Assembly (NCBI RefSeq): GCF_002097715.1
Contig: NZ_CP020738.1
Span: forward strand, 124,001-188,000
DNA length: 64,000 nt
Origin: Burkholderia ubonensis subsp. mesacidophila
Lineage (GTDB): Bacteria; Pseudomonadota; Gammaproteobacteria; Burkholderiales; Burkholderiaceae
Direction: 5' to 3'
Shown one piece after another: positions 12,063-64,000 of this stretch. Numbering within the stretch: the stretch's first letter is position 1; every line of letters starts with the position of its first letter. The notes below the pieces were generated by a model, which was not told the DNA's origin, ran no database searches, and saw nothing but the letters and a program-made list of their open reading frames with translations. Both the position numbers and the translations under genes were made by a program.

Positions 12063-12086
12063 TGTCCCGGCTTTCCGTTGCAGACA
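12063..12086. promoter_or_regulatory. Imperfect syr-syp-like dyad upstream of the SyrC-like gene
   Basis: TGTCCCG (12063-12069) opens the site and TGCAGACA (12079-12086) closes it, 85 bp before the ATG at 12171. The outer TGTC/GACA arms match the TGTCCC...GACA dyad bound by SalA/SyrF-type LuxR regulators in Pseudomonas syringae, but spacing is 4 bp longer than the 20-bp consensus. The CTTT core resembles the better-conserved site at 14425-14444. Confidence 0.4.
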
Positions 12087-12170
12087 TTCCGGCGCACGGG
12101 TGCTTCAATCGACGTGCCGGGCGGAGCGCCCGGCGCGTCTCTTCCGTCATCGATCGCCTGGAATCCCTTC

Positions 12171-14772: not shown

Positions 14773-14783
14773 GGGGGATCGCA

Positions 14784-32632: not shown

Positions 32633-32643
32633 GACCGTCCAAC

Positions 32644-35614: not shown

Positions 35615-35635
35615 ACGCGCGGGCGCGGCCTGTGA

Positions 35636-35659: not shown

Positions 35660-35662
35660 CGC

Positions 35663-36187: not shown

Positions 36188-36226
36188 GGGCGTTGCTCCT
36201 CGGCGTTGAAAAAATGCATGAAAGGA

Positions 36227-44999: not shown

Positions 45000-45218
45000 T
45001 TACGACTGCGGCTGCGCTTGTTCGAGGAAGCGCCGCAGGCTGAGCGGGCGCATGTCGGTCCACACCTCGTCGACGTACGCGATGCATTCGTCCTCGGTGC
45101 CGGTCTTGCCGGCTTCGCGCCAGCCGGCGGGCACGGGCCGGTAGGTCGGCCAGATCGAATACTGTTCTTCGTCGTTGATGACGACCGTGTAGACGGTGTC
45201 GTGATCGATGTCTGCCAT
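45000..45218 (-). CDS. MbtH-like protein
   Basis: 72 residues starting MADIDHDTVYTVVINDEEQYSIWPT, with the family's conserved Trp residues in SIWP, PAGW and EVWTDMRP. MbtH proteins bind the N-subdomain of A domains and are needed for their folding or activity. AGGAG lies 7 nt before the ATG. It sits 43 bp upstream of the terminal NRPS gene and downstream of the SDR, in the same operon, so it probably serves some of the A domains here, including possibly the free-standing Thr didomain. Confidence 0.92.
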   Translation of the reverse strand: MADIDHDTVYTVVINDEEQYSIWPTYRPVPAGWREAGKTGTEDECIAYVDEVWTDMRPLSLRRFLEQAQPQS

Positions 45219-46056: not shown

Positions 46057-49000
46057 CGCCGATCTCCTCGTTGACGACGTCGGTTTCCGATTGCGCCGCC
46101 GGTTGTGTTGCCGATTTTGCTGCGGTTTGCGCCGCCTGCTGCCGGCGCAGCGCGTCGCGTTCGGCGGGCGTCATGTCGCGCAGCCGCAGCCACGCGGCCG
46201 CGACTTTCGCCGCCGCGCCCGGCGACGTTTCGTGGCGCTCGATCAGCGCGGCCATGTCGGCCGGCGTGCGGCTCGCGAGCATCTCGCCGAGCGGCGGCTC
46301 GACGCCGAACAGCTGGATCACGCGCGCGTGAATCCGCGTGAGCAGCAGCGAATTGCCGCCGAGCTCGAAGAAGTCGCTGTCGGGCGCGATCGACGCGTCG
46401 TCGAACACGCGGCGCCACAGCGCGCACACCATGTCCTCGAGCGCGTTCGCGGCCGTGCGCGCCGGTGTGGCGGCGCGCGGGCGCGCGGGCGCCGCTGCCG
46501 CCGCGAGCGCGCGGCGGTCGAGCTTGCCGTTCGCGGTGCGCGGCAGCGCGTCGTGCAGCGCGAACATCTGCGGCACCATGTACGCGGGCAGCTGGCGCGC
46601 GAGCGCGTCGCGCAGCGGCGCGTCGTCGAACGGCCGCGCCGGGTCGCGCAGCACCAGGTGCGCCTCGAGCCCCCACGCGCGGCCGTCGAGCCCGCGCCGC
46701 ACCGTCGCGGCCGCGTCGGCGATGTTGTCGAGCGCGCGCAGGTGGGCTTCGACGTCGCCGAGCTCGATCCGGTAGCCGTTGATCTTTACCTGATCGTCCG
46801 CGCGGCCGAGCAGCAGCAGCGTGCCGTCCTCGTTGCGCACCGCGAGGTCGCCGGTCGCATACAGGCGCGCGCCCGGCTCGGGCGACAGCGGATCGGGGCG
46901 GAAGCTGCGCGCGGTGCGGCCGGGCGCGCGCGTATAGCCTTGCGCGAGACCCGCGCCGGCGATCGTCAGTTCGCCGACGACGCCGGGCGGCGTCTCGTGG
47001 CCGTCCGCATCGACGACGCGCAGGCGCGTCGCGTCGAGCGCGCCGCCGATCCGGCCGGCGACGGCCGCGTCGGCGACGGGCTGCGCGGCCGACCAGATCG
47101 TCGTCTCGGTCGGCCCGTAGACGTTCAGCAGCGCGACGCCGCGCGCGAGCAGCGCGCCGGCCAGGTCGGCCGGCAGCGCCTCGCCGCCGCACCACGCATG
47201 GAAGCCCGGCTGCGGACGCCAGTCGGCCGACAGCAGCAGGCGCCACGTGAGCGGCGTCGCCTGCAGCACGGTGGTCCGCTGGTCGGCGAGCGCGCGCGCG
47301 AGCGCGACGCCGTTCGCGGCCGTCTCGGCGGACGCGATCGCGAGGTGCGCGCGGGTCACGAGCGGCAGGAAGAGTTCCAGCGCGGCGATGTCGAACGACA
47401 CCGTCGTCACGCTCGTCAGCACGTCGTCCGCGCCGAGCGGGAAGCGCGCGGCGAAGCTGCGCAGCAGGTTGGCGAGGCCGCCGCGGCGCACGTCGACGCC
47501 CTTCGGGCGGCCCGTGCTGCCCGACGTGAAGATCGTGTACGCGAGCGCGTCCGGGTGCAGGCGTCGGGCGCGGGCGAGCGCGGTTTGCGCGGCGTCCAGG
47601 GTTTCGCCGCAGGCGGACGCGCCGGTACGCGCCGGCGTGATGACCGGCACGCCCGCATCGCCGACCTCGACGTCGGGATGCGCGACGATCGCGACCGGCT
47701 TCGCGTCGGCGAGCATCATCGCGCGGCGCTCGGCGGGCAGCAGCGGGTCGATCGGCACGTAGGCGGCGCCCGCGAGCAGCGCGCCGGCGAGCGCGGCGAG
47801 CAGATCGACGCCGCGCGGCAGGCAGACGGCGACCGTCGCGCCGGGGCCCGCGCCGGCCGCCGCGAGCCGGTCGGCGAGCTCGCCCGCTTCGGCGAACAGC
47901 GCGGCTCGCGTGATCGTGCGGTCCGGGCCGCGAATCTCGCTGGTCGGCGTGGCGTCGAGCGCGCGGGCGAACAGGTCGATCAGCGTGTCGGCGCCTGCAT
48001 TCGCGAGCGGCGCGGACGGCGCGACTTCAGGCGCGGCGCAAGACGCGAGCGCTCCGATCGTGTCGCCGCGCTCATGCGCGATGCCGGCCGCAAGCTCGAC
48101 GAGCGCGTCGACCAGCGCGTTCGCGCGCGCTGCCGGCAGCCGCGCCGCGTCGTGCACCGCGTCGATGACGAGGCCGTCCGCGTTCGGCTTCACGTACAGC
48201 ATCAGCGGATAGTTCGGCGCCTCGTTCGCTTCGATCGCGCCGATCCGCAGGCCGTCCGCGTGCGCGCCCGCGTCTCGGTCGAGCGGATAGTTCTCGTAGA
48301 CGAACACGCTGTCGAACAGCGGCTGCTGCGCGCTCGCGCCGCTCCACCGCTGCACGTCGACGAGGCTGCAATGCTCGTGCCGCGCGATGGCCGACTGCGC
48401 GGCGAACAGCTGGCGCAGGAACGTGCCGACGGGCAGCGCGGGCCGGCAGTCGACGCGCACGGGCAGCGTCGAGATCAGCGCGCCGACCATGCGCTCGACG
48501 TCGGCAATCTCGGCCCCGCGCCCGGCGAACGTGACGCCGAACGTGACGTCGCGGGTGCGCGCGACGCGCGACAGCAGCAGCGCATACGCACCTTCGATGA
48601 CGGTGTTGAGCGTCACGCGCTCGCGCGCGGCGACGGCGTTCAGCGCGGCCGTCAGCTCGGGCGGCAGACGGCGGCGCACCGTGCCCGGCGCCGCCGCGTG
48701 CGCGCCCGCGCCGGCGGCAGGTGTCAGGCCGAGATCGAGCGGCACGTGGCGCGGGCCGAGCGTCGCGCGCCAGAATGCCTCGGCGTCGCGCAGGTCCTGC
48801 TGCGCGCGCAACCGTGCGGCGACGAAGCGTCCGTAGGACGGCGCGGCGGGCAGCGAAGGCGCGCGGCCGGCCGCGTCCGCTGCATAGCAGTGCGCGACTT
48901 CGCCGAGCAGGATCGCCATCGACCAGCCGTCGAGCAGCGCGTGATGATGGGTCCACACGAGTCGCCACGGCGCGCCGTCGCGGCGCAGCAGCGTGATGCG

Positions 49001-52000
49001 CATCAGCGGCGGCCGCGCGAGATCGACGCCGCGCGCGCGATCCTCGGCGAGGAACGCGGCGAGCGCGTGCTCGGGATCGCCATGCGCGCCGATCTCGCGG
49101 ACTTCGAGCGCGAGCGGCCGCGGCGCGTGCACGCGCTGCACCGGCTCGTCCAGATCGCGCCACGCGAAGCTCACGCGCAGCGCGTCGTGCCGCGCGTAGA
49201 CATGCGACCACGCGCGTTCGAGGCGCGCCGGATCGCACTCGCCGTCGATCGCCGCGACGATCTGCTCCAGATAGACGCCCGCCGACGCAGCGGCGGCGCG
49301 CGCGTGGTACAGCATCCCTTGCTGGGTCGACGTCAGGCTCCAGATGTCGACGACGGGCGGCTCGGCGTCGAGCAGCGCCGGCAGCGCATCCGCCGGCACG
49401 CGCGCGAGCGGGAAATCGCTCGGCGCCACCGCGGGCCGCGCGTCGCTCGCGGCGAGCAGCGCATGCAGCTCGGCCTGTGCGCGGGCGGCCAGCGTGCGCG
49501 CCTGCGCGTCGTCGAAGCGCCGCGCGTCGTAGTTCCAGCGCACGACGAGCCGGCCGTTCGCGACGAACGACACGACGTCGAGCGCGAAGCCGCGATCGTT
49601 GTCGTCGGCGGCGACGGGGCCGCAGTCTTCGCCGGCGAGCCGGATGCGCGATGCGGCGGGCAGCGCGCCGTCGGTCTGGCCGAGATAGTTGAAGCACACG
49701 TCGGGCAGCGCGCTCGTCGCGAGCGGATCGTCCGGCTGCGCGGCCGCAGCCGCGTCATGCAGCCATCCGTAGCCGCGGCCGTGCGCGGGCACCGCGCGCA
49801 GCGCGTCCTTCGCCGCGCGCAGGCGCGCGAGCGGCGACGGCGCGTCGAGCCGCTCGACGGCGAGCGGGTAGAGCGTCGTGAACCAGCCGAGCGCGCGCAC
49901 GAGCGTCGCGTCCGAGCCGTCGCCGCGGCCGTGGTGCTCGACCGTCACGCCGACGCTGTTCGTGCCGGCCGTCTCGGCGAGCGCCGTCGCGAGCGCGGCG
50001 AGCAGCAATTCCTGCGCGCTCGCATGCAGCCGCGTCGCGCCGTCCTGCAGCAGGCGCGTCGTCGCGTCGGCGTCGAGCGCGTGCTCGACGGTGCGCTGGT
50101 CCGCGTAGCGCGCCGCGCCCGACGGCGCGAGCCGGCCCGCGCGGGCGGCGCGCGGCGCGGCCTCGCGCCAGTAGCGCCGTTCGGCGTCGTCGATCGCGGC
50201 GGCCGCCTGCGCGCGCGCCCAGGCGACGAAGCCGGACGGCGGCGCGGCGACCGGCTGCCCGTGCAGCGCGTCGTGCAGGTCGCGCGTCAGCACGCGCCAC
50301 GACACGCCGTCGACGATCAGGTGGTGCATCACGAGCAGCAGGCGCGCGGAGCCGTCCGCGAAGCCGCGCACGTGGAGCGCGCGGAACAGCGGCGGCGCGG
50401 CGAGGTCGAGGCTGCGCTGCGCGTCGCGGGCAAGCGCCGCGAGCGCGTCGGCGGCGCCGTCGGCCGGCACGCGCGCGGTGTGGAACCACACCGCCGGCGC
50501 GCCCGCTTCGGCCAGCAATTCCTGCGTGACGCCGGCGTCGCCGGCCGTGAAGCGCACGCGAAACACGTCGTGCGCGGCAACGACGGCGGCGAGCGCGTCG
50601 CGCACCGTGTCGTCGGCGAGCTCGCCCGGCACGTCGAGCATCAGCGCCTGGTTCCAGTGCGCGGGCGCCGGCTGGCGCAGCGCGAAGAACCGCGCCTGCG
50701 CGGGCGTGAGCGGCACCGGGCCCGGCAGCGCGGCGGCCGTGGCGCCGGCCTCGGCGCCGACGCGCACCGCGATGCGCGCGAGCGCCGCGATCGTCGGATG
50801 TTCGAACACGTCACGCGGCGAGATCTGCCAGCCGCGCTGGCGGGCGCGCGCGCTCACCTGCAAGCTGACGATCGAGTCGCCGCCGAGCGCGAGGAAGTCG
50901 TCGTCCGCGCCGATCGCCGCGCGGCCGGGCAGCAGCTCGCGCCAGATGTCCGCGAGCATGTGCTCGACGGGCGTCGCGGGCGCGCGCGACGGCGCGGCGC
51001 GGCCGGCTGGATCGCCGGCCGGATCGATGGACGGAAAGCCGTTGCGGTCGGTCTTGCCGTTCGGCAGCAGCGGCCAGTCGACGGTTTCGACGAAGGCGCC
51101 CGGCACGAGCGACGCGGGCAGCCGCTCGCCGAGGAAGCGCCGGTAGTCGGCCGGCGCGGTATCGGCGGCGGCGCCGGCGTGCCGTTCGATCCACGCGACG
51201 AGGCGCACGCTGCCGTCCGGCATCGCGCGCGGCAGCACCGCGCAGCGCCGCACGGCCGGGTGCGCCGCGAGCAGGCTTTCGATCTCACCCGGCTCGACCC
51301 GCCAGCCGCGCAGCTTCAGCTGCTGATCGCCACGGCCGAGATAGTCGAGCCGGCCGTCGGGCAGGCGGCGCGCGAGGTCGCTGGTGCGGTACAGGCGGCC
51401 GCCGGCCGCGCCCGGCAGCGGATTCGGCCGGAAGCGTCGCGCGGTTTCGCCGGGGCGGCCGTGATAGCCGCGCGCGAGCCCCGCGCCGCCGATCCAGATC
51501 TCGCCGGCGACGCCGGCCGGCACGGGTTCCATGTGCTCGTCGAGGATGAACACGCTGACGTTGTCGATCGGCGTGCCGAGCGACGGCGGTGCGTCGTCGG
51601 TCGCGCCGTCTGCATCGACGGTATCTACGGTATCTACGATTACGCAGCTCGTCGCATCGACGGTCGTCTCGGCCGGGCCGTACAGGTTGATCAGCCGTGC
51701 GCGCCAGGTCTGCCGGAAGCGCTCGGCTGTCGCGCCGCGCAGCGCCTCGCCGCCGACGAACACGCGCGTCACGCGGCGCATCCGGGTGATCGCGGCCGGG
51801 TCGTCGAGGATCACGTCGAGCAGGCTCGGCACGAGCTGCACGACCGTCGCGCCGTTTTGCTCGACGGCGTCGGCGAGCGCGTTCACGTCGCGCGACGCAT
51901 CGGCGGGCGCGAGCGCGAGCGTCGCGCCGCTCGCGAGCGGCGCCCAGAATTCCCACACCGATGCGTCGAAGCTCACCGGCGTCTTTTGCAGCACGACGTC

Positions 52001-55000
52001 CGTTGCGTCGAGCGGGAAGCGGCGCGCCATCCAGTGCATGTGGTTCGCGAGCGCGCCGCGCGACACCGCGATCGGCTTGGGCCGTCCGGTCGAGCCGGAC
52101 GTGAAGACGAGGTACGCGAGCGCGTCGTCGGGCACGTCGCGCGCGATCGGCGCGGCATCGGCCGCCACGGCACCGGCCGCCGCGGCAATGGCCGCCACAC
52201 GGAAGTCGTCGAGCAGCAGCAGGTCGGCGCGCGGCGTCGGCAGTTGCGCGGCCGTCGCCTCGGTCGCGACGACGAGCGCGGGCCGCGCATCGTCGAGCGT
52301 CATCTGCAGCCGCGCGGCGGGCAGGCCCACGTCGAGCAGGCAATACGCGCCGCCGGCCTTCAGCACGCCGACGAGCGCGACCGCGAGCCGTACGTCGCCC
52401 GGCGTGAGCGCGATCGCGACGACCGTGTCCGCGCCGACGCCCCGCTGGACGAGGCGCGCGGCGAGCGCGTCCGACGCGGCGTCGAGCGCGGCGAAGTCGA
52501 GTTCCGCGTCGACGCCGCGCACCGCGCAGCGCTGCGGATGCGCGCGCGCCGCGGCGCGCACGCGCGCGAGCAGGTCGCCCGCCGGCACGTCGACCGGCTC
52601 GCCGTGCGACGCACGCAACGCGGCGTCGTCGGCGGCGGCGAAGCGCGCGCCGGCATCGTCCGGCCGCGCCGCGAAATGCTCGGCCGCCTGCGCATAGCGA
52701 TCCGCGAGCCATGCGATCTGCGCGTCGGAGAACGCGTCGCGGTCATAGGACAGCGACACCGTCATCCCGCGCGCGCCGTCGTTCGTGCGCGTGACGGCGA
52801 ACGTCGTCGCGCACGGAATCTCGACCGCTTCGTGGCTGCGGGCCTCGAAGACCGTCAGCGCGCCGTCGCGCCGCAGGTCGTCATACGCATGGAAGTCGAC
52901 GAAATTGAACGACGTGTCGAACAGCGCCGCGCCGTCGCCGGCCGCGCGCAGGCTCGCGATCGCGGCCATCGGGTAGCGGCGGTGCGCGAACAGGTCGGCT
53001 TCGGCGGCGGCGACCGCGCGCGCGAGGTTCGTCCAGCCGCGCGCCTCGACGCCGAGCCGGAACGGCAGCGTGTTGAGGAACAGGCCGACCATCGCCGCGC
53101 CGTCGGCTTCGGCCGGGCGGCCGTTCGACACGAGGCCCGTCACGACGTCGCGCGCGCCGTTCGCGAGCGACAGCACCTGCAGGTGGATCGCGAGCAGCAG
53201 CGCCTTGAGCGGCAGGCCGTTGCGCTCCGCATGCGCGCGCAGCGCGGCGACGGTCGCCGCCGGCAGCGTGCGATCGTGCCGGCCCGCGCGCGGCGTGTGC
53301 GGATCGCGCGCCGCGCGCGGCCAGCGCGGCAGCGCGGTCGACGGCGCGCCGGCGAGCCGTTCCGTCCAGAAGCGCCGCGTGTCGGCGTCGTCGAGCGCGG
53401 CTTGCTCCAGCCGCACGAATTCGCGATACGGCGTGGCCGGCGCGACGATCTCGCCGCCGCCGACGAGCGTCGCGAAATCGGCGAGCAGCCGCGCGACGCT
53501 CCAGCCGTCGAGGATCGCGTGATGGAACGCGATGCCGACCTGCCATTCGTCGTCGCCCAGCGCCTGCAGCACGATGCGCAGCAGCGACGGCTGCCGCGGG
53601 TCGCAGCGCTCGGCGCGCAGCCGCGCGAGCAGGTCGGTGAAGCGACGCTCGCGTTCGAGCGGGTCGAGCGCGCTCAGGTCCTCGATGTCGGCCTGCGGCG
53701 TCGCGCGCGCATGGACGAGCTGCAGCGGCCGCTCGACGCCGTCGAGCAGGAAGCGCGTGCGCAGCGCCGGATGCGCGGCGGCGAGCGCGTCGAGCGCGGC
53801 CGGAACGCGTGCGATGTCGATTGGCGCCCGCACGTGGAAGCACATCGCGTCGTAGTACAGGTCCCGCTCGTCGCCGGATTCCGCGTGATGCAGCATGCCC
53901 GCCTGCAGGCGGGCGAGCGGGTACGCATCCTCGACGTCCGCCGGCAGGCGGCGGCGCTCGTCGTCGCTGATCAGCGAGAACGGCGCGGCGAGCGGCGCGC
54001 GTTCGCGCGGCGCCTGGGCGTCCTGCCGGTCGCGCGGCTTCGCGGCCAGCAGCGCCTCGATCGTCCGGTGCCGAAACAGGTCCGCGATGTCGAGCGCGAA
54101 GCCGCGCTCGCGCGCGAGGCCGGCCACGCGGATGCTGCGGATCGAATCGCCGCCGAGCGCGAAGTAGTCGTCGCGCACGCCGACCGCGTCGACGCCGAGC
54201 GCTTCGCGCCAGATGTCCGCGAGCGCCGCCTCGTCGGCGTTGCGCGGCGCGACGTGCGCATCCGCCGCGCGGGCCGGCGCGGGCAGCGCGCGCCGGTCGA
54301 GCTTGCCGTTCGACGTCAGCGCGAACGCGCTCGTCGCGATCAGGAACGACGGCACTTCGTGCGCGGGCAGCCGCGCGTCGAGATGGCGGCGCAGCGCGTC
54401 GACGTCGACCGTGACGCCGGGCCGCGCGACGAACCATGCGCACAGGCGCGCGTCCTGCATGTCCTGCGTGTCCGCTCGGCTGCGCTCGGCCGCGACGAAC
54501 GCGTCGGCGACGCCCGGATGCGCGAGCAGCGCCGCGCGGACTTCATTCGGCTCGATCCGGTGGCCGCGGATCTTGAGCGCGTCGTCGCCCCGGCCGACGT
54601 ACACGAGCTCGCCGTGCGCGTCGCGCCGCGCGAGGTCGCCCGAATGGTAGACGCGCGCCGCGCCGACGCCGGTGAAGCGCTGCGCGGTGAGCTCGGGCCG
54701 GTTCAGGTAGCCGAGCGCGACGCCCGCGCCGCCGACCACGATCTCGCCCGTCGCGCCGTCGGGAACGTCGTGGCCGCAGGCGTCGACGACGCGCAGCGTG
54801 AGGTCCGCGAGCGGCTCGCCGATCGGCGACGCGTCGGCGTCCACGTCACGCGCGTGCATCGTGCGCAGCGTCGCGTGCACGGTGATCTCGGTGATCCCGT
54901 ACATGTTGTTCAGGCGCGGCGTCGCGTCGCCGCGCCGCGCGATCCAGCCGGCGAGGTCGCGCGGGTGGAGCGCCTCGCCGCCGAACACGACGTGGCGCAG

Positions 55001-57175
55001 CGCGAGCGCGAGCCGCAGCCGCGCGTCGGCCGCATCGAGCATCCGGAACGACGACGGCGTCTGGCTCAGCATCGTCACGCGCTCGGCGCCGAGCAGCGCG
55101 AGGAGCGCGTGCGGATCGCGCGCGCTCTCCCGCGACGCGATCACGACGCGCCCGCCATGCAGCAGCCCGCCCCACAGCTCCCACACCGAGAAATCGAACG
55201 CGAACGAATGCGTGCAGCTCCACGTGTCGTGCGGGCCGAAGCCGAAGTGCGCGCGCGTCACGGCGAACAGGCGGCTCACGTTGTCGTGGCTGACGAGCAC
55301 GCCTTTCGGCTGGCCGGTCGAGCCCGACGTGTAGATCACGTAGGCCGGCTGGTCGCGCTCGACCGGCTCGAACGCCGTGTCGTCGGCCGGCGCCGGCCAG
55401 GCGTCGACGTCGTCGATCAGCAGCAGGTCGCAGCCTTGCGGCGCGCGCGCGGCGGTCGAGCGCACGGCGAGCAGCTGGCGCGCGCCGCTGTCGGCGACGA
55501 GGTACGCGAGCCGTTCGTCCGGATGCGTGCTGTCGAGCGGCACGTAGCAGCCGCCCGCGAGCAGCACGCCGAGCATCGCGGCGACGGCCGACGCGTCGCG
55601 CTCGAGCAGCAGCGCGACGCGATCGCCGCGCGCGAGCCCCGCGGCGCGCAGCCGGGCGGCAATCGCGCGCGCATGCGCGGCGAGCTGCGCATACGATGCG
55701 CGCCCGCCCGAATGCGTGACGGCGATGCGCTCGCCGGCATCGGCTGCGATCGCGAGAAATTGTTGCGCGAGGCCGGGGGCATGACGCTCATCGGCGGCAG
55801 CCGACGGCAACGCCAGCCGTTCCGGCCGCAGCCCGACGTCGCGCAGCGGCGCCGCCGCGTGTTCGACGAACGCCTGCACGACATGCAGCACCGCGTCGAG
55901 CACGCCCTGCGCGGCGTGCGCGTCGATGCGCGCCTCGTCGAAGCCGAGCTTCACGCCGATCTGCTCGGGGCCCGGCGCGAAGCTCAGCGTCAGCGGCAGG
56001 TGCGTATGCTCTTCCTGCTGGACCTCCGAGATCCGGAAGCCGACGTCGGCCGTCTCCAGCGCGTCCTGCAGCGGGAAATTGTCGACCGCGACGAGGCATT
56101 CGAACAGCGGCCGGTCCGGCGCGACGCCGGCCGCGTCGCGCACGTCGGGCAGCGCGCAGTGCGCGAGCCGCAGCAGGCCGTGCTGGCCGCGCTGCACGTC
56201 GCCGAGCCACTCCACGACGCTGAGCCCGTCCGGCACCGCGATCCGGAACGGCACGGTGTTCGCGAGCAGCCCGACCATCTGCTGGATGCCGTCGACGGGC
56301 GCGGTGCGGCCCGACAGCACGAGCCCGAACACGGCTTCGTCCGCGCGCGCGAGACGGCTCAGCACGAATGCGCACGCGCCGATCAGCACGGTGCCGGCCG
56401 TCACGCGCGCCGCCGCCGCGAGCCGCACGACGTCCGCCGCGGGCAGCGTGGCGCGCAGCGCGCGCATGCGCCGGCCGTCTTCGCCGGGCCGCGCCGGGCG
56501 ATCGACGCCGAGCGGCATCGGCAGGCTCGCGCCGTCGAGCAGGGTGCGCCACGCGTCGACGTCGCGCGCGCGATCCTGCGCGCCGAGCCAGTCGACGTAA
56601 TCGGAGAAACGCGCGGCGGCGGGCTGCGCCGCGTGCGCCGGGTTCGCGTAGAGCGCGAAGAAATCCTTCAGCACGAGCGGCAGCGACCAGCCGTCGATGA
56701 TCACGTGATGATGGGTCCACACGAGTGTCCAGCGCGCGTCGTCGTCGCGGATCAACGCGACGCGCATCAGCGGCGGACGGTTCAGCCGGAAGCCCTGCCG
56801 GCGCTGTTCGTCGGCGAAGCGGGCCAGCGCGTCGGCGCGCGTGCCGGCGGGGCGGCCACGCCAGTCTTCGACGATCAGCGGCACCGTCGCGTCGGCGAAC
56901 ACGACTTGCCGCGGCTCGGACTGTCCGCGCGTGACGAACGCGCTGCGCAGCGTTTCGTGACGGCGTACCAGCGCCGCGAGCGCGGCCCGGAAGCGCTCGG
57001 GGTCGACGTCGCCGTCGAGCCGGCAGACGATCTGCTCGAGATAGGCGGGGCTGTCGGGCGTCGCGAGCGCGTGGAACAGCATGCCGCGCTGCAGCGGCGA
57101 CAGGCCGATGATGCGCTCCACGGCAGGGGTGGCGCGCGGGTCGGAAACGGCGGGGCGGGTCTGAGCTTGGCTCAT
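46046..57175 (-). CDS. NRPS, three modules: C-A-T-C-A-T-E-C-A-T
   Basis: 3709 residues. Module 1: C with HHVIIDGWS, of the type that follows an E domain; A positions D-F-W-S-V-G-M-V-H-K, Thr-like; T. Module 2: C opening with VEDAYPLARLQAGML and HHAILDG, reminiscent of C domains that act on modified residues such as dehydrating modAA types; A positions D-A-W-Q-F-G-L-V-D-K, one change from a known Gln code; T; then E (HHLIVDGVSW, FNYLGQ). Module 3: C; A positions D-I-L-Q-W-G-V-I-W-K, closest to Gly codes; T. ATG 57175 overlaps the stop of the upstream NRPS (ATGA). Predicted segment: Thr (perhaps dehydrobutyrine), D-Gln, Gly. No TE, so the chain passes to the terminal NRPS. Confidence 0.9.
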   Translation of the reverse strand: MSQAQTRPAVSDPRATPAVERIIGLSPLQRGMLFHALATPDSPAYLEQIVCRLDGDVDPERFRAALAALVRRHETLRSAFVTRGQSEPRQVVFADATVPLIVEDWRGRPAGTRADALARFADEQRRQGFRLNRPPLMRVALIRDDDARWTLVWTHHHVIIDGWSLPLVLKDFFALYANPAHAAQPAAARFSDYVDWLGAQDRARDVDAWRTLLDGASLPMPLGVDRPARPGEDGRRMRALRATLPAADVVRLAAAARVTAGTVLIGACAFVLSRLARADEAVFGLVLSGRTAPVDGIQQMVGLLANTVPFRIAVPDGLSVVEWLGDVQRGQHGLLRLAHCALPDVRDAAGVAPDRPLFECLVAVDNFPLQDALETADVGFRISEVQQEEHTHLPLTLSFAPGPEQIGVKLGFDEARIDAHAAQGVLDAVLHVVQAFVEHAAAPLRDVGLRPERLALPSAAADERHAPGLAQQFLAIAADAGERIAVTHSGGRASYAQLAAHARAIAARLRAAGLARGDRVALLLERDASAVAAMLGVLLAGGCYVPLDSTHPDERLAYLVADSGARQLLAVRSTAARAPQGCDLLLIDDVDAWPAPADDTAFEPVERDQPAYVIYTSGSTGQPKGVLVSHDNVSRLFAVTRAHFGFGPHDTWSCTHSFAFDFSVWELWGGLLHGGRVVIASRESARDPHALLALLGAERVTMLSQTPSSFRMLDAADARLRLALALRHVVFGGEALHPRDLAGWIARRGDATPRLNNMYGITEITVHATLRTMHARDVDADASPIGEPLADLTLRVVDACGHDVPDGATGEIVVGGAGVALGYLNRPELTAQRFTGVGAARVYHSGDLARRDAHGELVYVGRGDDALKIRGHRIEPNEVRAALLAHPGVADAFVAAERSRADTQDMQDARLCAWFVARPGVTVDVDALRRHLDARLPAHEVPSFLIATSAFALTSNGKLDRRALPAPARAADAHVAPRNADEAALADIWREALGVDAVGVRDDYFALGGDSIRSIRVAGLARERGFALDIADLFRHRTIEALLAAKPRDRQDAQAPRERAPLAAPFSLISDDERRRLPADVEDAYPLARLQAGMLHHAESGDERDLYYDAMCFHVRAPIDIARVPAALDALAAAHPALRTRFLLDGVERPLQLVHARATPQADIEDLSALDPLERERRFTDLLARLRAERCDPRQPSLLRIVLQALGDDEWQVGIAFHHAILDGWSVARLLADFATLVGGGEIVAPATPYREFVRLEQAALDDADTRRFWTERLAGAPSTALPRWPRAARDPHTPRAGRHDRTLPAATVAALRAHAERNGLPLKALLLAIHLQVLSLANGARDVVTGLVSNGRPAEADGAAMVGLFLNTLPFRLGVEARGWTNLARAVAAAEADLFAHRRYPMAAIASLRAAGDGAALFDTSFNFVDFHAYDDLRRDGALTVFEARSHEAVEIPCATTFAVTRTNDGARGMTVSLSYDRDAFSDAQIAWLADRYAQAAEHFAARPDDAGARFAAADDAALRASHGEPVDVPAGDLLARVRAAARAHPQRCAVRGVDAELDFAALDAASDALAARLVQRGVGADTVVAIALTPGDVRLAVALVGVLKAGGAYCLLDVGLPAARLQMTLDDARPALVVATEATAAQLPTPRADLLLLDDFRVAAIAAAAGAVAADAAPIARDVPDDALAYLVFTSGSTGRPKPIAVSRGALANHMHWMARRFPLDATDVVLQKTPVSFDASVWEFWAPLASGATLALAPADASRDVNALADAVEQNGATVVQLVPSLLDVILDDPAAITRMRRVTRVFVGGEALRGATAERFRQTWRARLINLYGPAETTVDATSCVIVDTVDTVDADGATDDAPPSLGTPIDNVSVFILDEHMEPVPAGVAGEIWIGGAGLARGYHGRPGETARRFRPNPLPGAAGGRLYRTSDLARRLPDGRLDYLGRGDQQLKLRGWRVEPGEIESLLAAHPAVRRCAVLPRAMPDGSVRLVAWIERHAGAAADTAPADYRRFLGERLPASLVPGAFVETVDWPLLPNGKTDRNGFPSIDPAGDPAGRAAPSRAPATPVEHMLADIWRELLPGRAAIGADDDFLALGGDSIVSLQVSARARQRGWQISPRDVFEHPTIAALARIAVRVGAEAGATAAALPGPVPLTPAQARFFALRQPAPAHWNQALMLDVPGELADDTVRDALAAVVAAHDVFRVRFTAGDAGVTQELLAEAGAPAVWFHTARVPADGAADALAALARDAQRSLDLAAPPLFRALHVRGFADGSARLLLVMHHLIVDGVSWRVLTRDLHDALHGQPVAAPPSGFVAWARAQAAAAIDDAERRYWREAAPRAARAGRLAPSGAARYADQRTVEHALDADATTRLLQDGATRLHASAQELLLAALATALAETAGTNSVGVTVEHHGRGDGSDATLVRALGWFTTLYPLAVERLDAPSPLARLRAAKDALRAVPAHGRGYGWLHDAAAAAQPDDPLATSALPDVCFNYLGQTDGALPAASRIRLAGEDCGPVAADDNDRGFALDVVSFVANGRLVVRWNYDARRFDDAQARTLAARAQAELHALLAASDARPAVAPSDFPLARVPADALPALLDAEPPVVDIWSLTSTQQGMLYHARAAAASAGVYLEQIVAAIDGECDPARLERAWSHVYARHDALRVSFAWRDLDEPVQRVHAPRPLALEVREIGAHGDPEHALAAFLAEDRARGVDLARPPLMRITLLRRDGAPWRLVWTHHHALLDGWSMAILLGEVAHCYAADAAGRAPSLPAAPSYGRFVAARLRAQQDLRDAEAFWRATLGPRHVPLDLGLTPAAGAGAHAAAPGTVRRRLPPELTAALNAVAARERVTLNTVIEGAYALLLSRVARTRDVTFGVTFAGRGAEIADVERMVGALISTLPVRVDCRPALPVGTFLRQLFAAQSAIARHEHCSLVDVQRWSGASAQQPLFDSVFVYENYPLDRDAGAHADGLRIGAIEANEAPNYPLMLYVKPNADGLVIDAVHDAARLPAARANALVDALVELAAGIAHERGDTIGALASCAAPEVAPSAPLANAGADTLIDLFARALDATPTSEIRGPDRTITRAALFAEAGELADRLAAAGAGPGATVAVCLPRGVDLLAALAGALLAGAAYVPIDPLLPAERRAMMLADAKPVAIVAHPDVEVGDAGVPVITPARTGASACGETLDAAQTALARARRLHPDALAYTIFTSGSTGRPKGVDVRRGGLANLLRSFAARFPLGADDVLTSVTTVSFDIAALELFLPLVTRAHLAIASAETAANGVALARALADQRTTVLQATPLTWRLLLSADWRPQPGFHAWCGGEALPADLAGALLARGVALLNVYGPTETTIWSAAQPVADAAVAGRIGGALDATRLRVVDADGHETPPGVVGELTIAGAGLAQGYTRAPGRTARSFRPDPLSPEPGARLYATGDLAVRNEDGTLLLLGRADDQVKINGYRIELGDVEAHLRALDNIADAAATVRRGLDGRAWGLEAHLVLRDPARPFDDAPLRDALARQLPAYMVPQMFALHDALPRTANGKLDRRALAAAAAPARPRAATPARTAANALEDMVCALWRRVFDDASIAPDSDFFELGGNSLLLTRIHARVIQLFGVEPPLGEMLASRTPADMAALIERHETSPGAAAKVAAAWLRLRDMTPAERDALRRQQAAQTAAKSATQPAAQSETDVVNEEIGDAN

Positions 57176-60100
57176 TCGGTATCCGTAAGGTCGAGAAGCA
57201 GGGCGTCGAGTTCGGCGGGCCGCAAATGTTCGCCGCCCGGCAGCGGCGACGATGGCGGCTGCGACGCGGTAGGCGTCGCGTCGAGTCGTGCGGCGAGATG
57301 CGCGCACAGCGAGCGGAGCGCGTCGTCGGTCAGCGCGGCGAGGCGGTCGATGTCGGGCGGTGCGGTGGTGTCGCACGGCGCGCCGCTGTATGCGAAGCGG
57401 ATCGACAGCGCGCCGGCCGCGATCGCCGCGTCGATCGCGAGCGGATGCGGCACCGGGTCGTCTGGCGCGCGGCCGTCGGGCAGGCCGCCCGCCGCGATGC
57501 GCGCGCCGAGCTCGGGCAGCGCGCCGGCGTCGCCGTCGGCGGCCGTGCCGAGATAGTTCCAGCTGACCGCGCGCGGGCGCGCATCGGCGAGCGTGCCGTG
57601 CTGCGTCAGCACGCCGAAGCCGACGCCGCCGTCGGGCACCGCGCGCAGCAGCGCCTTCGCGCGCGCGATCGCGGCGTTCCAGTCGTCGTCGGACTCGATG
57701 CGCAACGGATAGACGCAGGTGAACCAGCCGACCGTCTGCGACACGTCGGCGTCGACGCCTGCCGGCACCTGCCGGCCGTGGCCTTCGACGTCGAGCCGCA
57801 GCGCGGCGTCGCCGGTCCAGTCGCGCCAGGCGCGTGCGAGCGCGGTGAGCAGCAGTTCGTGCGTGCGGGTGTCGTGCACGCGATTGAGCGGGCCGTTCAG
57901 TTGAGCGGTGAGGTCGGCGTCGAACGCGAGCCGCACGATGTCGAGCGCGTCGACGCGGCCCGCTGCGCCGAGCGTGTCGGCGGCATCACCGGCCGTGGCG
58001 GCCAGCATCGATTCCCAGAAGCCGCGCTCGGTCTCGCGGGCGGCCGCGGTCGCGGCGAGCGCGCCGTTCCAGCGGCGGTAGCTCGTCGAGCGCGGCGCGG
58101 CCGGCATCGGTTCGCCGCGCCGCGCGGCGCGGTAGTACGCGTCGAGATCGGCGAGCAGGATGCGCCACGACGCGACGTCCATCACCAGGTGGTGGGCGAC
58201 GACGATCAGCTCCGGCGCGCCGGTCGGGCCGTGCGGCACGTAGGCGGCATGCGCGACGGGGCCGTGCACCGGATCGAGCGTCGCCTGCAGCGTGGCCGCG
58301 TATGCATTGAGCGCCGCGTCGTCCGCGAGCGCGCCGGATGTGATTGCAAGCGGCAGCAGCGCCGCACCGTCGCGCGGCGCATAGCGCTGCCGCCAGCCGT
58401 TCGCGTCACGTTCGACGCGCAGCCGCAGTGCGTCGTGACGCAGCGCGAGCGCGGCCAGCGCGCGGGTGAGCGCGTCGGGATCGAGCGGCGCCGCGAGCGC
58501 GAGCCGCACGTCGATCGTGAAGCGTCGGGGCGCGTCACCACTGCGTTCGAGGAACCAGCGCTGGATCGGCGCGAGCGGGACCTCGGCTACGTCGGGTTCC
58601 GGCTCGGGCGCAAGCGTGCGAGCTTCGACAGCGACGCGCGCGCGGCAGACGTCGGCGATCGCGCGCGGCGTGCGCAGCTCCAGCACCTCGCCCGCGCCGA
58701 TCTTGACGCCGTGCCGCAGCAGCGTCGCGCCGACCTGCAGCGCGAGGATCGAGTCGCCGCCGAGCGCGAAGTAGTCGTCGTCGACGCGCGCGTCGGGCAC
58801 GCCGAGCACCTGGCGGAACGCGTCGCGCACCCAGCGCTCGACGTCGTCGCGCGGTGAGTCGGCCACAGCATCGGCCACCGCGTCGCCGGCTGGGCGCGGC
58901 GCCGGCGCGTGCGCGTCGCGCAGCGTCGCGCGATCGATCTTGCCCGACGACGTGAGCGGCCAGTCCGTCACGGCGACGAAGCGCGCCGGCACCTCGTGCG
59001 GCGCGAGCGCGCGAGCCGCATGCGCGCGCAGCGCGTCGGCGTCGAACGTGGCGGCGTCGCGCGGAATCACGAACGCGGTCAATTCCGGGCGGCGCCCGGA
59101 TTCGGTCACGTCGACCAGCGCCTCGCGCACCGACGGATCGCGCAGCAGCACGCCGGCGATGCCGTCCGGATCGATCCGGTAGCCGCGCAGCTTCACGTGG
59201 CCGCCCGCGCGGCCGAGATAGCGGATCGAACCGTCGGCGAGCATGACGCCGCGATCGCCGGTCCGGTACAGGCGCGCGCCCGGCTGGGCCGACGTCGGGT
59301 CCGGCACGAAGCTCGCGGCGGTGAGCCCGGGGCGGCCGAGATAGCCGCGCGCGAGCGCGGGCCCGCCGACGCAGATCTCGCCCGCGACGCCGGCCGGCGC
59401 CACGCCGAGCCATTCGTCGAGCACGACGGTCCGTACGCCTGAGATGCCCGCGCCGATCGGCGGCAGCGGCTCGTGGGCGTCGCACGCGTGCATATTCGTG
59501 CAGACGGTCGCTTCGCTCGGCCCGTACGCGTTGACGACCCGGCGGCCGCGCGCCCAGCGCGCGAGCAGCCCGGCGGGCGCGGCCTCGCCGGCGGCGACGA
59601 TCGTCCGGACGCCGGCGAGATCGGCGTCGTCGAGCGCCGCGAGGAGCGACGGCGGCAGCGTGACGTGCGTGATGCTGCCCGCGCGGGCGGCGTCGATCAG
59701 CGCATCCGACGTGCCGCTCTGCTTCGCGCCTTCGGGCGGCAGCACGAGCGCGGCGCCGCTCGACAGCGCCGTGAAGATCTCCGCGACCGACGCATCGAAC
59801 GTGAGCGGCGGGAACAGGAAGATCCGGCTGTGCGCGTCGACCGCGAACCCCGCGTGCATCGCGCGGCACATGTTCGCGATGCCCGCGTGCGTGACGCCGA
59901 CGCCTTTCGGCTCGCCGGTCGAGCCCGACGTGTAGATCACGTAGGCGAGGCTCGACGGCGGCGGCGCTGCGTGCTCTGCCGCCGCGTCGCCGGCTGCTTC
60001 GAGCAGGTCGGCGATGCGCAGCGCGGTGATACCGTCCGCGCCGTCCGCATCGGTCGGCGTCGATTCGTCCGCGACGATCACGAAGCGCGCGCCGGCGTCG

Positions 60101-63100
60101 CGCAGCATGTAGCTCAGGCGGGCGGGCGGATAGTGCGGATCGAGCGGCAGGTAAGCGGCGCCCGCCTTGAGGATGCCGAGGAGCGCCGCGATCGCGTGCG
60201 CGCCGCGCGGCAGCATCATCCCGACGATCGTCTCCGGTCCGGCGCCGAGCCGGCGCAGGTGCGCGGCGATCGTGTCGGCCCGGCGCGCGAGCGCCGCGTA
60301 GGTCAGCGTGTCGGTCGGCGTGATCAGCGCGGGCGCGTCGGGTTGGCGTGAGGCCGTGCGCTCGAACAGTTCATGCGCGAGCGGCGCGTCGGGCGCGGCG
60401 AGCGCGGAGTCGGGCCGCGCGGCCGGCTCGTCGCCGATTTCGGCGAGCGTCGCGTCGGGCGTCGCGGCGAACCGCTCGACGAGCCGTGCAAGCCGTTCGA
60501 CGAGCGCCGCCGCCTGCGCGTCCGGATAGCGGTTCGCGTCGTATTCGAGCCGCAGCGTGAAGCGCTCGCCGGGAATGATCGCGAGCGTGACCGGGTAGTT
60601 CGTGTGCTCGTGATAGTCGGGCCGTGCGAACACGAGGCCGTCGGGCGCGGCGAAGTCGCCGTCGACCGGATAGTTCTCGAACACGACGAGCGTGTCGAAC
60701 AGGTCGTTCGTCTCCGCGCCGGCCGCGCGCAGGATGTCGGGCAGGCGCTCGTGCTCGCTCGAGAGCAGCTCGGCGAGCGCCTGCTGCACGCGGCCGAGCA
60801 GCGTGCGGACGGTCTGCGCCGGGGCGAGCGTCACGCGCAGCGGCAGCGTGTTGATGAAGAGGCCGATCATCGCGTCGGCGCCCGGCGCGCCGCTCGATCG
60901 GCCCGACAGCGTGACGCCGAATGCGACGTCCGCGCCGACGCCGCTGCGCGCGAGCAGCAGCGCCCACGCGGCGTCGAACACGGTGCTCGGCGTCACGCCG
61001 GCATCGCGTGCAAGCCGCTCGATCGCGTCGCTCGCCACGCGCGTCAGCGCGATGTCGTGGCGCGCCTGGCGCGCCGGGCCTCGCGCAGGGGCGGCGAGGC
61101 GCGCAGGCGCCAGCCCCGCGAGGCGGGCGCGCCACGCGTCATGCGTTGCGCCCGCCTCGCGCAGCGCGAGCCACGCGAGATGGTCGGCGAAACGGCGCGG
61201 CGCGGGCAGCGCGGCGTCGCGGCCCGTATAGATCGCGATCAGCTCGCGGAAGAACACCGGAATCGACCAGCCGTCGAGCAGGATGTGATGGAAGCTCCAC
61301 AGCCAGCGGTGGCGTTGCGGGCCGAGCGCGGCAACTGCCAGGCGCATCAGCGGCGGGCGCGCCAGGTCGAACGGCTGCGCGGCGTCGTCGCGCAGCCATT
61401 GCGCGAGCCGCGCGTCCTGCTCGGCCGGCGTGGCGGCGTCGGACCAGTCGAGCCACGCGACGGGCAGCGTCGGCTGCGCATCGACGAACTGGATCGGCCG
61501 GCCGGCCGCGCGCGCGACGAAGCCCGCGCGCAGCGCATCGTGCCGCGCGAGCATCGCCTGCCACGCGGCCGCGAAACGCGGCAGGTCGAGCGGGCCGTCG
61601 ACGACCGCCGTGATCTGCTCGTGGAACGCGGTCGATGCGCGATGCGCGCTCGTCTCGAACAGCATGCCCTCCTGCAACGGCGTGAGGCTCGCGAGCGTCG
61701 CCGCGTCGGCGACCTCGGGGGCGAGTTCGTCCATCTCGTGCTGCGCGAGGCGCGCGAGCGGATGGTCGGCCGCGAGCCGCGGCGCGGCGGCGATCGCGTC
61801 GAGCAGCGCGTCGAGCCGCGCGATCCAGCGCTGCGCCGCGTCGTGCACGCGCTGCGGATCGAGCACCTGCGGCGCATAGCGCCAGTCCATCCGCAGCTCG
61901 CCGTCGATCACGCTCGCGACCACGTCGAGCGTGAAGCTGCGGCGGTTCGCGGCGGCGCGCTCGCCGACGATCAGGTCCGGGCGCAACGCGAACGCGCCGT
62001 TCGCCGGGCGGCCGATCACGCCGAGGAAGTTGAAGCTGATCTCCGGCAGCCCGGCGGCGTCGAGCCGCTGCCGGGCGTCGGGCGATGCGCCGAGCCAGCG
62101 CGCGAGGCCGTATTCGTGCCGGCGCGGCGCGAGCGCGGCGAGCGCGTGCGCGGCGCTCGCGAGCAGGTCGAGCGGCGCGTCGTCGCGCAGGCAGCCGTCG
62201 AGCACGATCGGGCTGAGCGCGGTGAACCAGCCGACGAGCGACGACGCGTCGACGCCGTATTCGCCATCCCGGCCGTGATGTTCGAGCGTCAGCGCGACGC
62301 GCTCGCTGTCGAGCGCGGGCGCGAGCGCCGCGCACAGCGACGCGATCAGGATCGCCTGGGTGCGCGAGCGGCGGCCGGCCGGGCCGCTGTCGAGCAGGCG
62401 CGCGGTTTGCTGCGGTGACAGGCGCCACGTGTCGACGCGCGTGTCGGCTTCAAGCCCCGGGGCCTTGGTATCCGCACGCGTTGGCAGCGTCGCGAAGCCG
62501 CGCTCGGCGAGCGCGAGCCACGGCGCGGGGTCGGCCGCCAGCGCGGCGGCGCTCGCCGCGCGATGCCAGTCCGCGAGCGACACGGCCGGGGCGGGCGGCG
62601 GCGCGTCGCCCGCGAGCGACGCGGCGAGCTGGTGCAGCAGCACCGACCACGAGAACGCGTCGACGGCGACGTGATGCACGGCGAGCGCGAGCAGTGCCGG
62701 CGCGCCGTCGCGGCGGATCAGCGCGGCGCGCGCGAGCGGGCCGTTTCGCAGGTCGAGCCGCGCGGCGAGCGACGCGATCGCCGAGCGCGCGTCGTCGTCG
62801 TTCGCGGCCGTGCGGACGTCGAGCGGAAAGCGCTCCGGCGCGTCGTCCGGCGCGAACGCGACGCTCGCGCGGCCCGCGTCGAGCGTCACGCGCTGGCGCA
62901 GCGCCGCGTGCTGCGCGGCCAGCTGCCGCAACGCGTCGCGCAGCGGCTCGGGTGCGATCGCGTGGGTCGTCTCGACGACGATCGTCTGCGCCCAGTGATT
63001 CGGCTCGGCGAGACCGAGCTGCGCGAACCACGCGACGATCGGCGTCGGCGGCAGCGCGTCGTCCACGTGCGGCTCGCCGGCGGCTTGCGTCGCGGCAAGC

Positions 63101-64000
63101 GGCGCGTGAGCGCGCGGCGCGCGATCGAGTGCTTCCGCGAGCGCGCGCAGGCTGGCGCCGCCGAGCATCTGGGCGGGCGTCAGGTGTAGTCCCTTGCCGC
63201 GCGCCTCGACGATCGCGCGCAGCGCGCTCAGGCTGTCGCCGCCGAGCGAGAAGAAGCTGTCGTCGCGGCCGGGCTCGCGGCCGAGGATGCGGGCCCAGAC
63301 TTCGGCGAGCGCTTGCTCGGTCGGGGTGGCGGGCGGCGTGGGCGCGGCGTCGGCGTGGCAGGCGTCGTCGCTTTCGTGCGTCGTCGCGTCAGCGGCCGGC
63401 GCGATCGGCTGCGGCGCCGCGAGTCCCGGCAGCGGCAATTGCGCGATCGGCGCGTGCGGATCGCGCAGCGCCGCGTCGAGCAGCTCGGCGAAGCTTGCGA
63501 GCCAGGTGTCGGCGGCCTGCGCGTCGAGCACGTCGCAGCGATGCTCGAGCGCCGCATGCAGCGCGTCCGCGCGCGGCTCGACCATCATCGTCAGGTCGAA
63601 TTTCGCGGTGGCCGGATACACGGGCACGACGTCGATCGACAGCGTGCCGAGCCGCGGCGCGCGCAGCGGCGCGCTCTGCAGCGCGAACAGCGCGTGGAAG
63701 AGCGGCGTGTCGACCGCGTCGCGCGCATGCCGCCGCGCGACCTCGTCGAACGGCGCGCGCGAATGCGCGAACGCCTCGAGCACGACGCCGCGGCAGCGCG
63801 CGACCAGCGTCGCGAAATCGGGCTCGCCCGACACGTCGATGTCGAGCACGAGCGTATTCGCGAAGAAGCCGATCATCGGCTCGAACTCCGGGCGCAGCCG
63901 GTTCGCGACCGGCGTGCCGATCGCGAGCCGCGTCGCGCCGCTCGCGCGATGCAGCAGCGCGGCGAACGCGGCGAGCAGCACGACGAACGGCGTCGTGTCG
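57172..64000 (-). CDS. NRPS with an A-less C-T-E module, then C-A-T-E (partial)
   Basis: The gene runs off the right edge; about 2275 residues are visible. Order: C domain (C-terminal half, 63400-64000); directly after it T (SFFSLGGDSLSA, about 63130-63330) with no adenylation domain between; E (HHVAVDAFSW, FNFLGV; about 61700-63080); C (HHILLDGWS); A with positions D-A-A-T-V-A-A-V-C-K, resembling aromatic (Tyr/Phe-like) codes; T (DDYFALGGDSILA); E (HHLVMDVASW, WNYLG). The C-T-E module cannot load itself and matches the SyrE arrangement filled in trans by SyrB1/SyrC. Both E domains predict D-residues. The C-terminus ends at the overlapping start of the next NRPS. Confidence 0.88.
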   Translation of the reverse strand, partial: DTTPFVVLLAAFAALLHRASGATRLAIGTPVANRLRPEFEPMIGFFANTLVLDIDVSGEPDFATLVARCRGVVLEAFAHSRAPFDEVARRHARDAVDTPLFHALFALQSAPLRAPRLGTLSIDVVPVYPATAKFDLTMMVEPRADALHAALEHRCDVLDAQAADTWLASFAELLDAALRDPHAPIAQLPLPGLAAPQPIAPAADATTHESDDACHADAAPTPPATPTEQALAEVWARILGREPGRDDSFFSLGGDSLSALRAIVEARGKGLHLTPAQMLGGASLRALAEALDRAPRAHAPLAATQAAGEPHVDDALPPTPIVAWFAQLGLAEPNHWAQTIVVETTHAIAPEPLRDALRQLAAQHAALRQRVTLDAGRASVAFAPDDAPERFPLDVRTAANDDDARSAIASLAARLDLRNGPLARAALIRRDGAPALLALAVHHVAVDAFSWSVLLHQLAASLAGDAPPPAPAVSLADWHRAASAAALAADPAPWLALAERGFATLPTRADTKAPGLEADTRVDTWRLSPQQTARLLDSGPAGRRSRTQAILIASLCAALAPALDSERVALTLEHHGRDGEYGVDASSLVGWFTALSPIVLDGCLRDDAPLDLLASAAHALAALAPRRHEYGLARWLGASPDARQRLDAAGLPEISFNFLGVIGRPANGAFALRPDLIVGERAAANRRSFTLDVVASVIDGELRMDWRYAPQVLDPQRVHDAAQRWIARLDALLDAIAAAPRLAADHPLARLAQHEMDELAPEVADAATLASLTPLQEGMLFETSAHRASTAFHEQITAVVDGPLDLPRFAAAWQAMLARHDALRAGFVARAAGRPIQFVDAQPTLPVAWLDWSDAATPAEQDARLAQWLRDDAAQPFDLARPPLMRLAVAALGPQRHRWLWSFHHILLDGWSIPVFFRELIAIYTGRDAALPAPRRFADHLAWLALREAGATHDAWRARLAGLAPARLAAPARGPARQARHDIALTRVASDAIERLARDAGVTPSTVFDAAWALLLARSGVGADVAFGVTLSGRSSGAPGADAMIGLFINTLPLRVTLAPAQTVRTLLGRVQQALAELLSSEHERLPDILRAAGAETNDLFDTLVVFENYPVDGDFAAPDGLVFARPDYHEHTNYPVTLAIIPGERFTLRLEYDANRYPDAQAAALVERLARLVERFAATPDATLAEIGDEPAARPDSALAAPDAPLAHELFERTASRQPDAPALITPTDTLTYAALARRADTIAAHLRRLGAGPETIVGMMLPRGAHAIAALLGILKAGAAYLPLDPHYPPARLSYMLRDAGARFVIVADESTPTDADGADGITALRIADLLEAAGDAAAEHAAPPPSSLAYVIYTSGSTGEPKGVGVTHAGIANMCRAMHAGFAVDAHSRIFLFPPLTFDASVAEIFTALSSGAALVLPPEGAKQSGTSDALIDAARAGSITHVTLPPSLLAALDDADLAGVRTIVAAGEAAPAGLLARWARGRRVVNAYGPSEATVCTNMHACDAHEPLPPIGAGISGVRTVVLDEWLGVAPAGVAGEICVGGPALARGYLGRPGLTAASFVPDPTSAQPGARLYRTGDRGVMLADGSIRYLGRAGGHVKLRGYRIDPDGIAGVLLRDPSVREALVDVTESGRRPELTAFVIPRDAATFDADALRAHAARALAPHEVPARFVAVTDWPLTSSGKIDRATLRDAHAPAPRPAGDAVADAVADSPRDDVERWVRDAFRQVLGVPDARVDDDYFALGGDSILALQVGATLLRHGVKIGAGEVLELRTPRAIADVCRARVAVEARTLAPEPEPDVAEVPLAPIQRWFLERSGDAPRRFTIDVRLALAAPLDPDALTRALAALALRHDALRLRVERDANGWRQRYAPRDGAALLPLAITSGALADDAALNAYAATLQATLDPVHGPVAHAAYVPHGPTGAPELIVVAHHLVMDVASWRILLADLDAYYRAARRGEPMPAAPRSTSYRRWNGALAATAAARETERGFWESMLAATAGDAADTLGAAGRVDALDIVRLAFDADLTAQLNGPLNRVHDTRTHELLLTALARAWRDWTGDAALRLDVEGHGRQVPAGVDADVSQTVGWFTCVYPLRIESDDDWNAAIARAKALLRAVPDGGVGFGVLTQHGTLADARPRAVSWNYLGTAADGDAGALPELGARIAAGGLPDGRAPDDPVPHPLAIDAAIAAGALSIRFAYSGAPCDTTAPPDIDRLAALTDDALRSLCAHLAARLDATPTASQPPSSPLPGGEHLRPAELDALLLDLTDTE

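Follow-up and report, generated by a model that had tools for sequence, protein, structure and literature searches.

A module lacking an adenylation domain and a candidate SyrC-type threonyl relay in a nonribosomal peptide synthetase cluster of Burkholderia ubonensis subsp. mesacidophila

A 64,000-nucleotide stretch of the Burkholderia ubonensis subsp. mesacidophila genome (GCF_002097715.1, contig NZ_CP020738.1), referred to here as the window, carries a nonribosomal peptide synthetase (NRPS) cluster whose second synthetase, NRPS2, opens with a module of condensation (C), carrier (T) and epimerization (E) domains and no adenylation (A) domain. The window spans C2:124001-188000 of the host genome (7.84 Mb, four contigs) and also encodes a stand-alone A-T didomain of the SyrB1 family and a SyrC-family cysteine transferase. 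The best explanation of this arrangement, and in our view a fairly probable one, is a relay in which threonine passes from the A-T protein through the SyrC-family protein to the A-less C-T-E module, where it is incorporated and epimerized.

The complete assembly line has nine modules (two, two, three and two in successive proteins) and nine carriers, with eight A domains in cis; the match of eight cis A domains and one lone Thr-coded A-T protein to nine T domains speaks for the relay. The A-T protein would be the ninth A domain of the line, activating L-Thr and loading its own carrier, and the threonyl group would then move to the cysteine of the SyrC-family protein and from there to the carrier of the A-less first module of NRPS2. 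There the C domain would condense the upstream chain with Thr, the E domain would invert its C-alpha, and the next C domain would take the D residue. Residue 3 of the product is predicted to be D-allo-Thr.

Composition and maintenance of the A-less module

The full NRPS2 gene, recovered from the host genome (L031), encodes 2564 amino acids counted from the first start codon of the open reading frame (ORF). Hidden Markov models (HMMs) built for this analysis, together with Pfam, give the domain order C-T-E-C-A-T-E, and Pfam finds four condensation-type stretches, two carriers and a single AMP-binding match, which lies at residues 1501-1843 in module 2. In module 1 the HMM borders place the end of the C domain at residue 472 and the start of the carrier at 511, leaving 38 residues between them in a linker rich in Ala, Pro and Thr. 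The first-pass annotation of this DNA had described an A-less C-T-E module, and annotation of the whole gene, including the part right of the window, bears this out, with no A domain in the 38-residue linker and the sole AMP-binding domain of NRPS2 in module 2. The C domain has an intact HHIACDGWS motif, the carrier reads FSLGGDSL, and the E domain has HHVAVDAFSW, EHHGR and VGWFTALSP. The HHxxxDxxSW and E(G/H)HGR motifs of active E domains are thus present, and are kept in homologues; the second reads EQHGR in the homologue from B. gladioli (P0065).

Comparison of the host with B. stagnalis gives ratios of nonsynonymous to synonymous substitution (dN/dS) of 0.13 for the T domain, 0.20 for C, 0.32 for E and 0.27 for the A-T protein, and 0.73 for the core of the linker (28 codons); the NRPS2 borders used were residues 56-480 for C, 481-508 for the linker core, 509-580 for T and 600-1030 for E. 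The C, T and E domains of the A-less module are therefore under purifying selection.

The class of the following C domain bears on the fate of the residue. A tree was built from 56 C and E domains in stretches of the host genome, a B. stagnalis genome (LMG 28156; G353) and a further Burkholderia genome (G205). It places every one of the seven C domains preceded by an E domain on the same protein in one clade of 12 with a support of 0.991. The C domain downstream of the E domain of the A-less module lies inside this after-E clade and the module's own C domain lies outside it, which fits an L donor entering the module and a D residue leaving it. This grouping of the downstream C domain makes it probable that the residue of the A-less module is epimerized, the D-accepting class of that C domain being read from its place in the tree. 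An earlier proposal that the trans-loaded residue is epimerized by the adjacent E domain has thus become probable, with the after-E class of the next C domain as its observed part and epimerization itself as its predicted part. That the module is skipped or idle is highly improbable: module skipping is known in general, but the C, T and E domains are under purifying selection, the motifs are kept in homologues, and the downstream C domain is of the after-E class. The second C domains of NRPS1 and NRPS3 have no E domain before them, yet they branch beside the after-E clade and are possibly of a modified-residue type.

The A-T and SyrC-family proteins and the absence of a halogenase

The A-T protein is 53-60% identical to proteins named SyrB1, and its specificity code, placed by motif like the other A-domain codes reported here, is DFWNIGMVHK, which we take to be a Thr code. 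The SyrC-family protein is 49-51% identical to proteins named SyrC and has the motif GICGGA containing Cys260; Cys260, Asp384 and His412 are invariant across 19 aligned relatives, from which Cys260 is predicted to be the nucleophile and Asp384 and His412 to have roles alongside it. A lone Thr A-T didomain and a SyrC-like protein, as first annotated, are accordingly present by family, code and conserved residues.

The same annotation had gone further and read these proteins as a complete set for loading in trans, as in syringomycin. The Thr A-T protein, a true relative of SyrC and the A-less module are indeed there, but the SyrB2 halogenase is missing from the neighborhood, so this is not the full syringomycin set. 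Four PhyH (Pfam) matches are found in the whole host genome and none in C2:112000-220000; the nearest on C2 is about 939 kb off by contig coordinate, and another, should C2 be circular, is at a distance of about 172 kb. Similarity searches likewise find no SyrB2-like homologue in the 108-kb host neighborhood, in the G353 or G205 stretches, or in the cluster of B. stagnalis YJ-2. A SyrB2-like halogenase near the host cluster, found neither by Pfam PhyH nor by similarity in those 108 kb, was rejected as a candidate. The situation is different at most other SyrC loci: at 53 of the 58 from named genomes a protein homologous to the SyrB2-like protein of P. citri is encoded, each of the 53 has an HQA motif in place of HxD, and the three SyrB2-like proteins tested (two from Pseudomonas, one from Sorangium) match Pfam PhyH. 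The five loci without a halogenase are two from Burkholderia, one on a 4-kb contig (L071) and two from actinomycetes (L077, L098). Since the stretches searched (host, G353, G205 and YJ-2) hold no SyrB2 homologue, the Burkholderia relay looks halogenase-free on that sample, to which the B. gladioli and B. oklahomensis loci do not belong. SyrC reportedly shuttles threonyl as well as chlorothreonyl residues, going by the title of a 2007 report by Singh cited in PMC8748450, which makes a halogenase-free use plausible.

Alternatively, the threonine could undergo modification on the A-T carrier, with the short-chain dehydrogenase (SDR) or the aspartyl/asparaginyl beta-hydroxylase of the cluster as examples of candidate enzymes, and be delivered by the SyrC-family protein in its altered form. 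The cluster does contain both enzymes, and most SyrC loci pair SyrC with a tailoring enzyme (the halogenase in 53 of 58). However, neither of the two genes adjoins the A-T gene, and Asp/Asn hydroxylases would be expected to act on other residues; we regard this explanation as very unlikely.

Several described systems share parts of the proposed relay. The SyrB1-SyrB2-SyrC-SyrE system of syringomycin in Pseudomonas, as presented in a passage of PMC8949500, is alike in its stand-alone SyrB1-family Thr A-T protein, SyrC-family Cys transferase and A-less acceptor; it differs in having the SyrB2 halogenase and in its acceptor, a terminal module of C, T and thioesterase (TE) domains, whereas here the acceptor would be an internal C-T-E module opening a middle synthetase. 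Rotihibin RthB/RthD/RthA (passage in PMC8552735) also combines a lone Thr A-T protein, a shuttle and an A-less module, but its shuttle is type II thioesterase-like, and its A-less module consists of C and T with no E domain and has L-allo-Thr as its residue. For WS9326A, passages in PMC8748450 and PMC7539972 give lone A-T proteins that load A-less modules in trans, with type II thioesterase shuttles and a downstream module described as C-T-C-A-T. The coronamic acid proteins CmaA/CmaE/CmaD (passage in PMC8748450) include the same kind of transferase, which moves an aminoacyl group between carriers, the acceptor there being a lone carrier and here an NRPS module. In the open-licence literature searched, we noticed no paper on this cluster or on an A-T/SyrC pair feeding a C-T-E module.

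Distribution of the three components and alternative sources of the residue

Among 65 Burkholderia genomes, the host included, the C-T-E stretch is found in two (E <= 1e-150), the host and G353, and the A-T protein is found in the same two (E <= 1e-200). SyrC is found in four (E <= 1e-60), namely these two and two more, G205 and B. ubonensis LMG 20358 (G328). Across 398 genomes of the family, SyrC has matches in seven (E <= 1e-20), of which the same four are near full length at 80-100% identity and the other three cover about 250 residues at 29%.

The cluster of B. stagnalis YJ-2 lies on one replicon and begins with genes for a thioesterase, a helix-turn-helix (HTH) regulator, SyrC, LuxR, the A-T protein, a resistance-nodulation-division (RND) pump and a glycosyltransferase. 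The row continues with sugar genes, a hydroxylase, an NRPS, MbtH, an SDR and three more NRPS genes, one of which has the C-T-E arrangement (97% covered, 80% identity). Its far end has a major facilitator superfamily (MFS) gene followed by an acyl-CoA synthetase (ACS) gene and two further fatty-acid genes. The genes listed within the row include none for the combination of ACS, ketosynthase III (KSIII) and fatty acyl-AMP ligase (FAAL).

Of 259 protein-database matches to C-T-E, 120 were listed and examined, and ten of these had the C-T-E arrangement. The A-less C-T-E is preserved in at least six further proteins among the matches listed (P0060-P0065), which align with 99-100% of the query at 60-87% identity, so the arrangement is not a chance one; three of the six are named, as Burkholderia sp. 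BCC0405, B. stagnalis and B. gladioli. The contigs of P0060 and P0061 are equal in size to those with SyrC (P0007 and P0006), which suggests linkage. The listed matches include B. gladioli-named proteins for SyrC (P0048), A-T (P0195) and C-T-E (P0065), and B. oklahomensis-named proteins for SyrC (P0010) and A-T (P0183) and none for C-T-E.

The A-T gene and the NRPS genes are missing together in G205 and G328, which, like the shared occurrence of A-T and C-T-E in the host and G353, speaks for the relay. Whole-genome searches of both find no NRPS2 ortholog and no A-T ortholog, while the two genomes retain the thioesterase, LuxR, SyrC and ACS-KSIII-MBL-FAAL genes (MBL, metallo-beta-lactamase fold); G205 additionally has the methyltransferase gene, and the G328 stretch (L041) ends inside the FAAL gene. 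In both, the interval from SyrC to ACS lacks the second LuxR, A-T and RND genes. In G328, two fragments of the second LuxR gene, corresponding to window positions 13667-13703 and 14336-14376, remain in this interval (L041:11302-11747), from which it follows that the A-T/RND block has been lost by deletion. The similarity between G205 and the window ends just past the methyltransferase gene, before the NRPS genes, and the next ORF, of 462 codons, matches the permease gene to the right of the host NRPS cluster in size only.

Several observations weigh against the relay. Its three components occur together in only two of the 65 genomes. SyrC is intact and constrained in G205 and G328: between them dN/dS is 0.17, with 20 synonymous and 10 nonsynonymous changes, and a binomial test against neutrality gives P of about 3e-6, a value that holds only if the deletion predates the split of the two. 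As both genomes are without A-T and C-T-E, the constraint is evidence of another use of SyrC, present or past. An A-T protein cluster is named B. ubonensis (P0182), and if that name is right, the loss in G328 is not species-wide. C-T-E homologues are present in five of six Sorangium genomes (L168:17877-20000; G405-G408) and SyrC (E <= 1e-40) in two of the six, so C-T-E needs no SyrC in general. Finally, both A domains of NRPS1 have the code DFWSVGMVHK, which we take to be Thr-like, and could load the A-less carrier themselves. The claim first made for this module, that it must be loaded in trans, is therefore too strong; what stands of that interpretation is an A-less module, a Thr A-T protein and a SyrC relative that co-occur in one cluster.

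A neighboring cis A domain, most likely the last of NRPS1, may load both its own carrier and the A-less one, with the A-T and SyrC-family proteins serving elsewhere. Given the Thr-like codes of NRPS1, the residue brought in this way would be similar, and the Sorangium C-T-E homologues without SyrC are in keeping with such sharing. So is the layout of the mannopeptimycin NRPS, C-A-T-E-C-A-T-C-T-E, for which it has been proposed that the A domain ahead of the C-T-E loads both carriers (PMC8949500); the passage that describes it, in which no A-T/SyrC pair is mentioned, makes plain that an A-less C-T-E after C-A-T is not new by itself. But the A-less module opens a new protein here, with the C-A-T of NRPS1 on a separate one, whereas in the mannopeptimycin line and in P0097 the C-A-T precedes it on the same chain. 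A shared A domain also leaves the A-T protein without a known acceptor, although A-T and C-T-E are found in the same two of 65 genomes and both are absent from the two other SyrC genomes. We consider this alternative unlikely.

The A-T protein might also feed the A-less module directly or via another carrier, with SyrC working with the operon for ACS, KSIII, FAAL, acyl-CoA dehydrogenase (ACAD) and acyl carrier protein (ACP). SyrC does lie directly upstream of this operon in G205 and G328, where it is constrained in the absence of the A-T protein and the C-T-E NRPS. In B. stagnalis, however, SyrC is found beside A-T in a cluster that lacks this operon, and 53 of the 58 SyrC loci from named genomes have a SyrB2-like halogenase, many of them also an A-T ORF, and we hold this division of labor to be quite unlikely. 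The operon occupies window positions 23056-34776 and encodes an acyl-CoA ligase, three KSIII-like proteins, an MBL-fold protein, a FAAL-ACAD-ACP fusion and an AprA MT2-like methyltransferase.

If the A-T-SyrC relay is as proposed, SyrC-type shuttles are not tied to halogenation or to chain-terminal modules, and the A-T/SyrC pair could be a portable feed of a chosen residue, later converted to D, into an internal module. A wider view, in which the relay has been freed from halogenation as a general shuttle that gives Thr to an epimerizing module, with SyrC kept for a fatty-acyl pathway in relatives and one shuttle perhaps serving two host lines, is doubtful. The two relatives with SyrC and without A-T and the NRPS are a natural test of which partner SyrC needs.

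Other candidate lines were also noted. A C-A-T-C-T protein on C1, presumably of an ornibactin-type line, was rejected as another A-less acceptor, being common to all four genomes compared, two of which are without A-T. The Sorangium genomes were dropped as an independent case of A-T, SyrC and C-T-E in one genome on the census of five against two of six given above. A protein on C3 of the host reads T-T-C-T and looks like part of a hybrid line. NRPS lines ending in C-T-TE without an A domain are present at C1:41245-50907 of G205 (L129/L130) and C3:195288-204803 of G328 (L121/L122), with gaps of about 40-45 residues between C and T; both genomes also carry SyrC.

Organization of the cluster

The NRPS genes are all on the minus strand, with the biosynthetic order NRPS1, NRPS2, NRPS3, NRPS4. 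All four genomes compared encode the two-stretch thioesterase-like protein upstream of SyrC. Features are collected in Table 1.

Table 1. Features of the NRPS cluster and the proposed relay, in window positions unless a locus is named (MT, methyltransferase domain)
Feature	Position	Strand	Remarks
Protein with two thioesterase-like stretches in one chain	9075..11015	+	upstream of SyrC
SyrC-family Cys alpha/beta-hydrolase, proposed threonyl shuttle	12078..13382	+	true start probably about 12186, where relatives begin
Stand-alone A-T didomain, SyrB1 family	14640..16682	+	true start probably about 14844 (from 612-aa P0180)
Aspartyl/asparaginyl beta-hydroxylase	35663..36187	-
NRPS4	36227..44956	-	C-A-MT-T C-A-T-TE, chain termination
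MbtH-like protein	45000..45218	-	by eye and by place in B. stagnalis YJ-2
SDR between NRPS4 and NRPS3	45286..46056	-
NRPS3	46046..57376	-	C-A-T C-A-T-E C-A-T; true start inside this ORF
NRPS2	57172-63999, running on to about 64866	-	C-T-E-C-A-T-E
Remainder of NRPS2 module 2, A-T-E	57172..60315	-	code DAATVAAVCK
C domain after E domain	60451..61710	-	after-E clade
E domain of A-less module	61801..63096	-	HHVAVDAFSW, EHHGR, VGWFT, FNFLG intact
Carrier (T), proposed acceptor of trans-loaded Thr	63136..63336	-	FSLGGDSLSA
Linker at usual A-domain place	63337..63450	-	38 residues
C domain of A-less module	63451..64000, on to about 64719 right of window	-	residues 50-472 (HMM)
NRPS1	L031:8749-15258, right of window	-	C-A-T-C-A-T

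The YJ-2 cluster also encodes a UDP-glucuronate decarboxylase, an epimerase/dehydratase and a second glycosyltransferase-like protein (L186:17155-21133), and these sugar genes suggest that its product may be glycosylated. In the window, the gap between the glycosyltransferase gene and NRPS4 (35614-36227) has room for the hydroxylase gene alone. The first C domain of NRPS4 reads HLDHLFGD (window 44414-44437) where HHxxxD is usual, with the second His kept.

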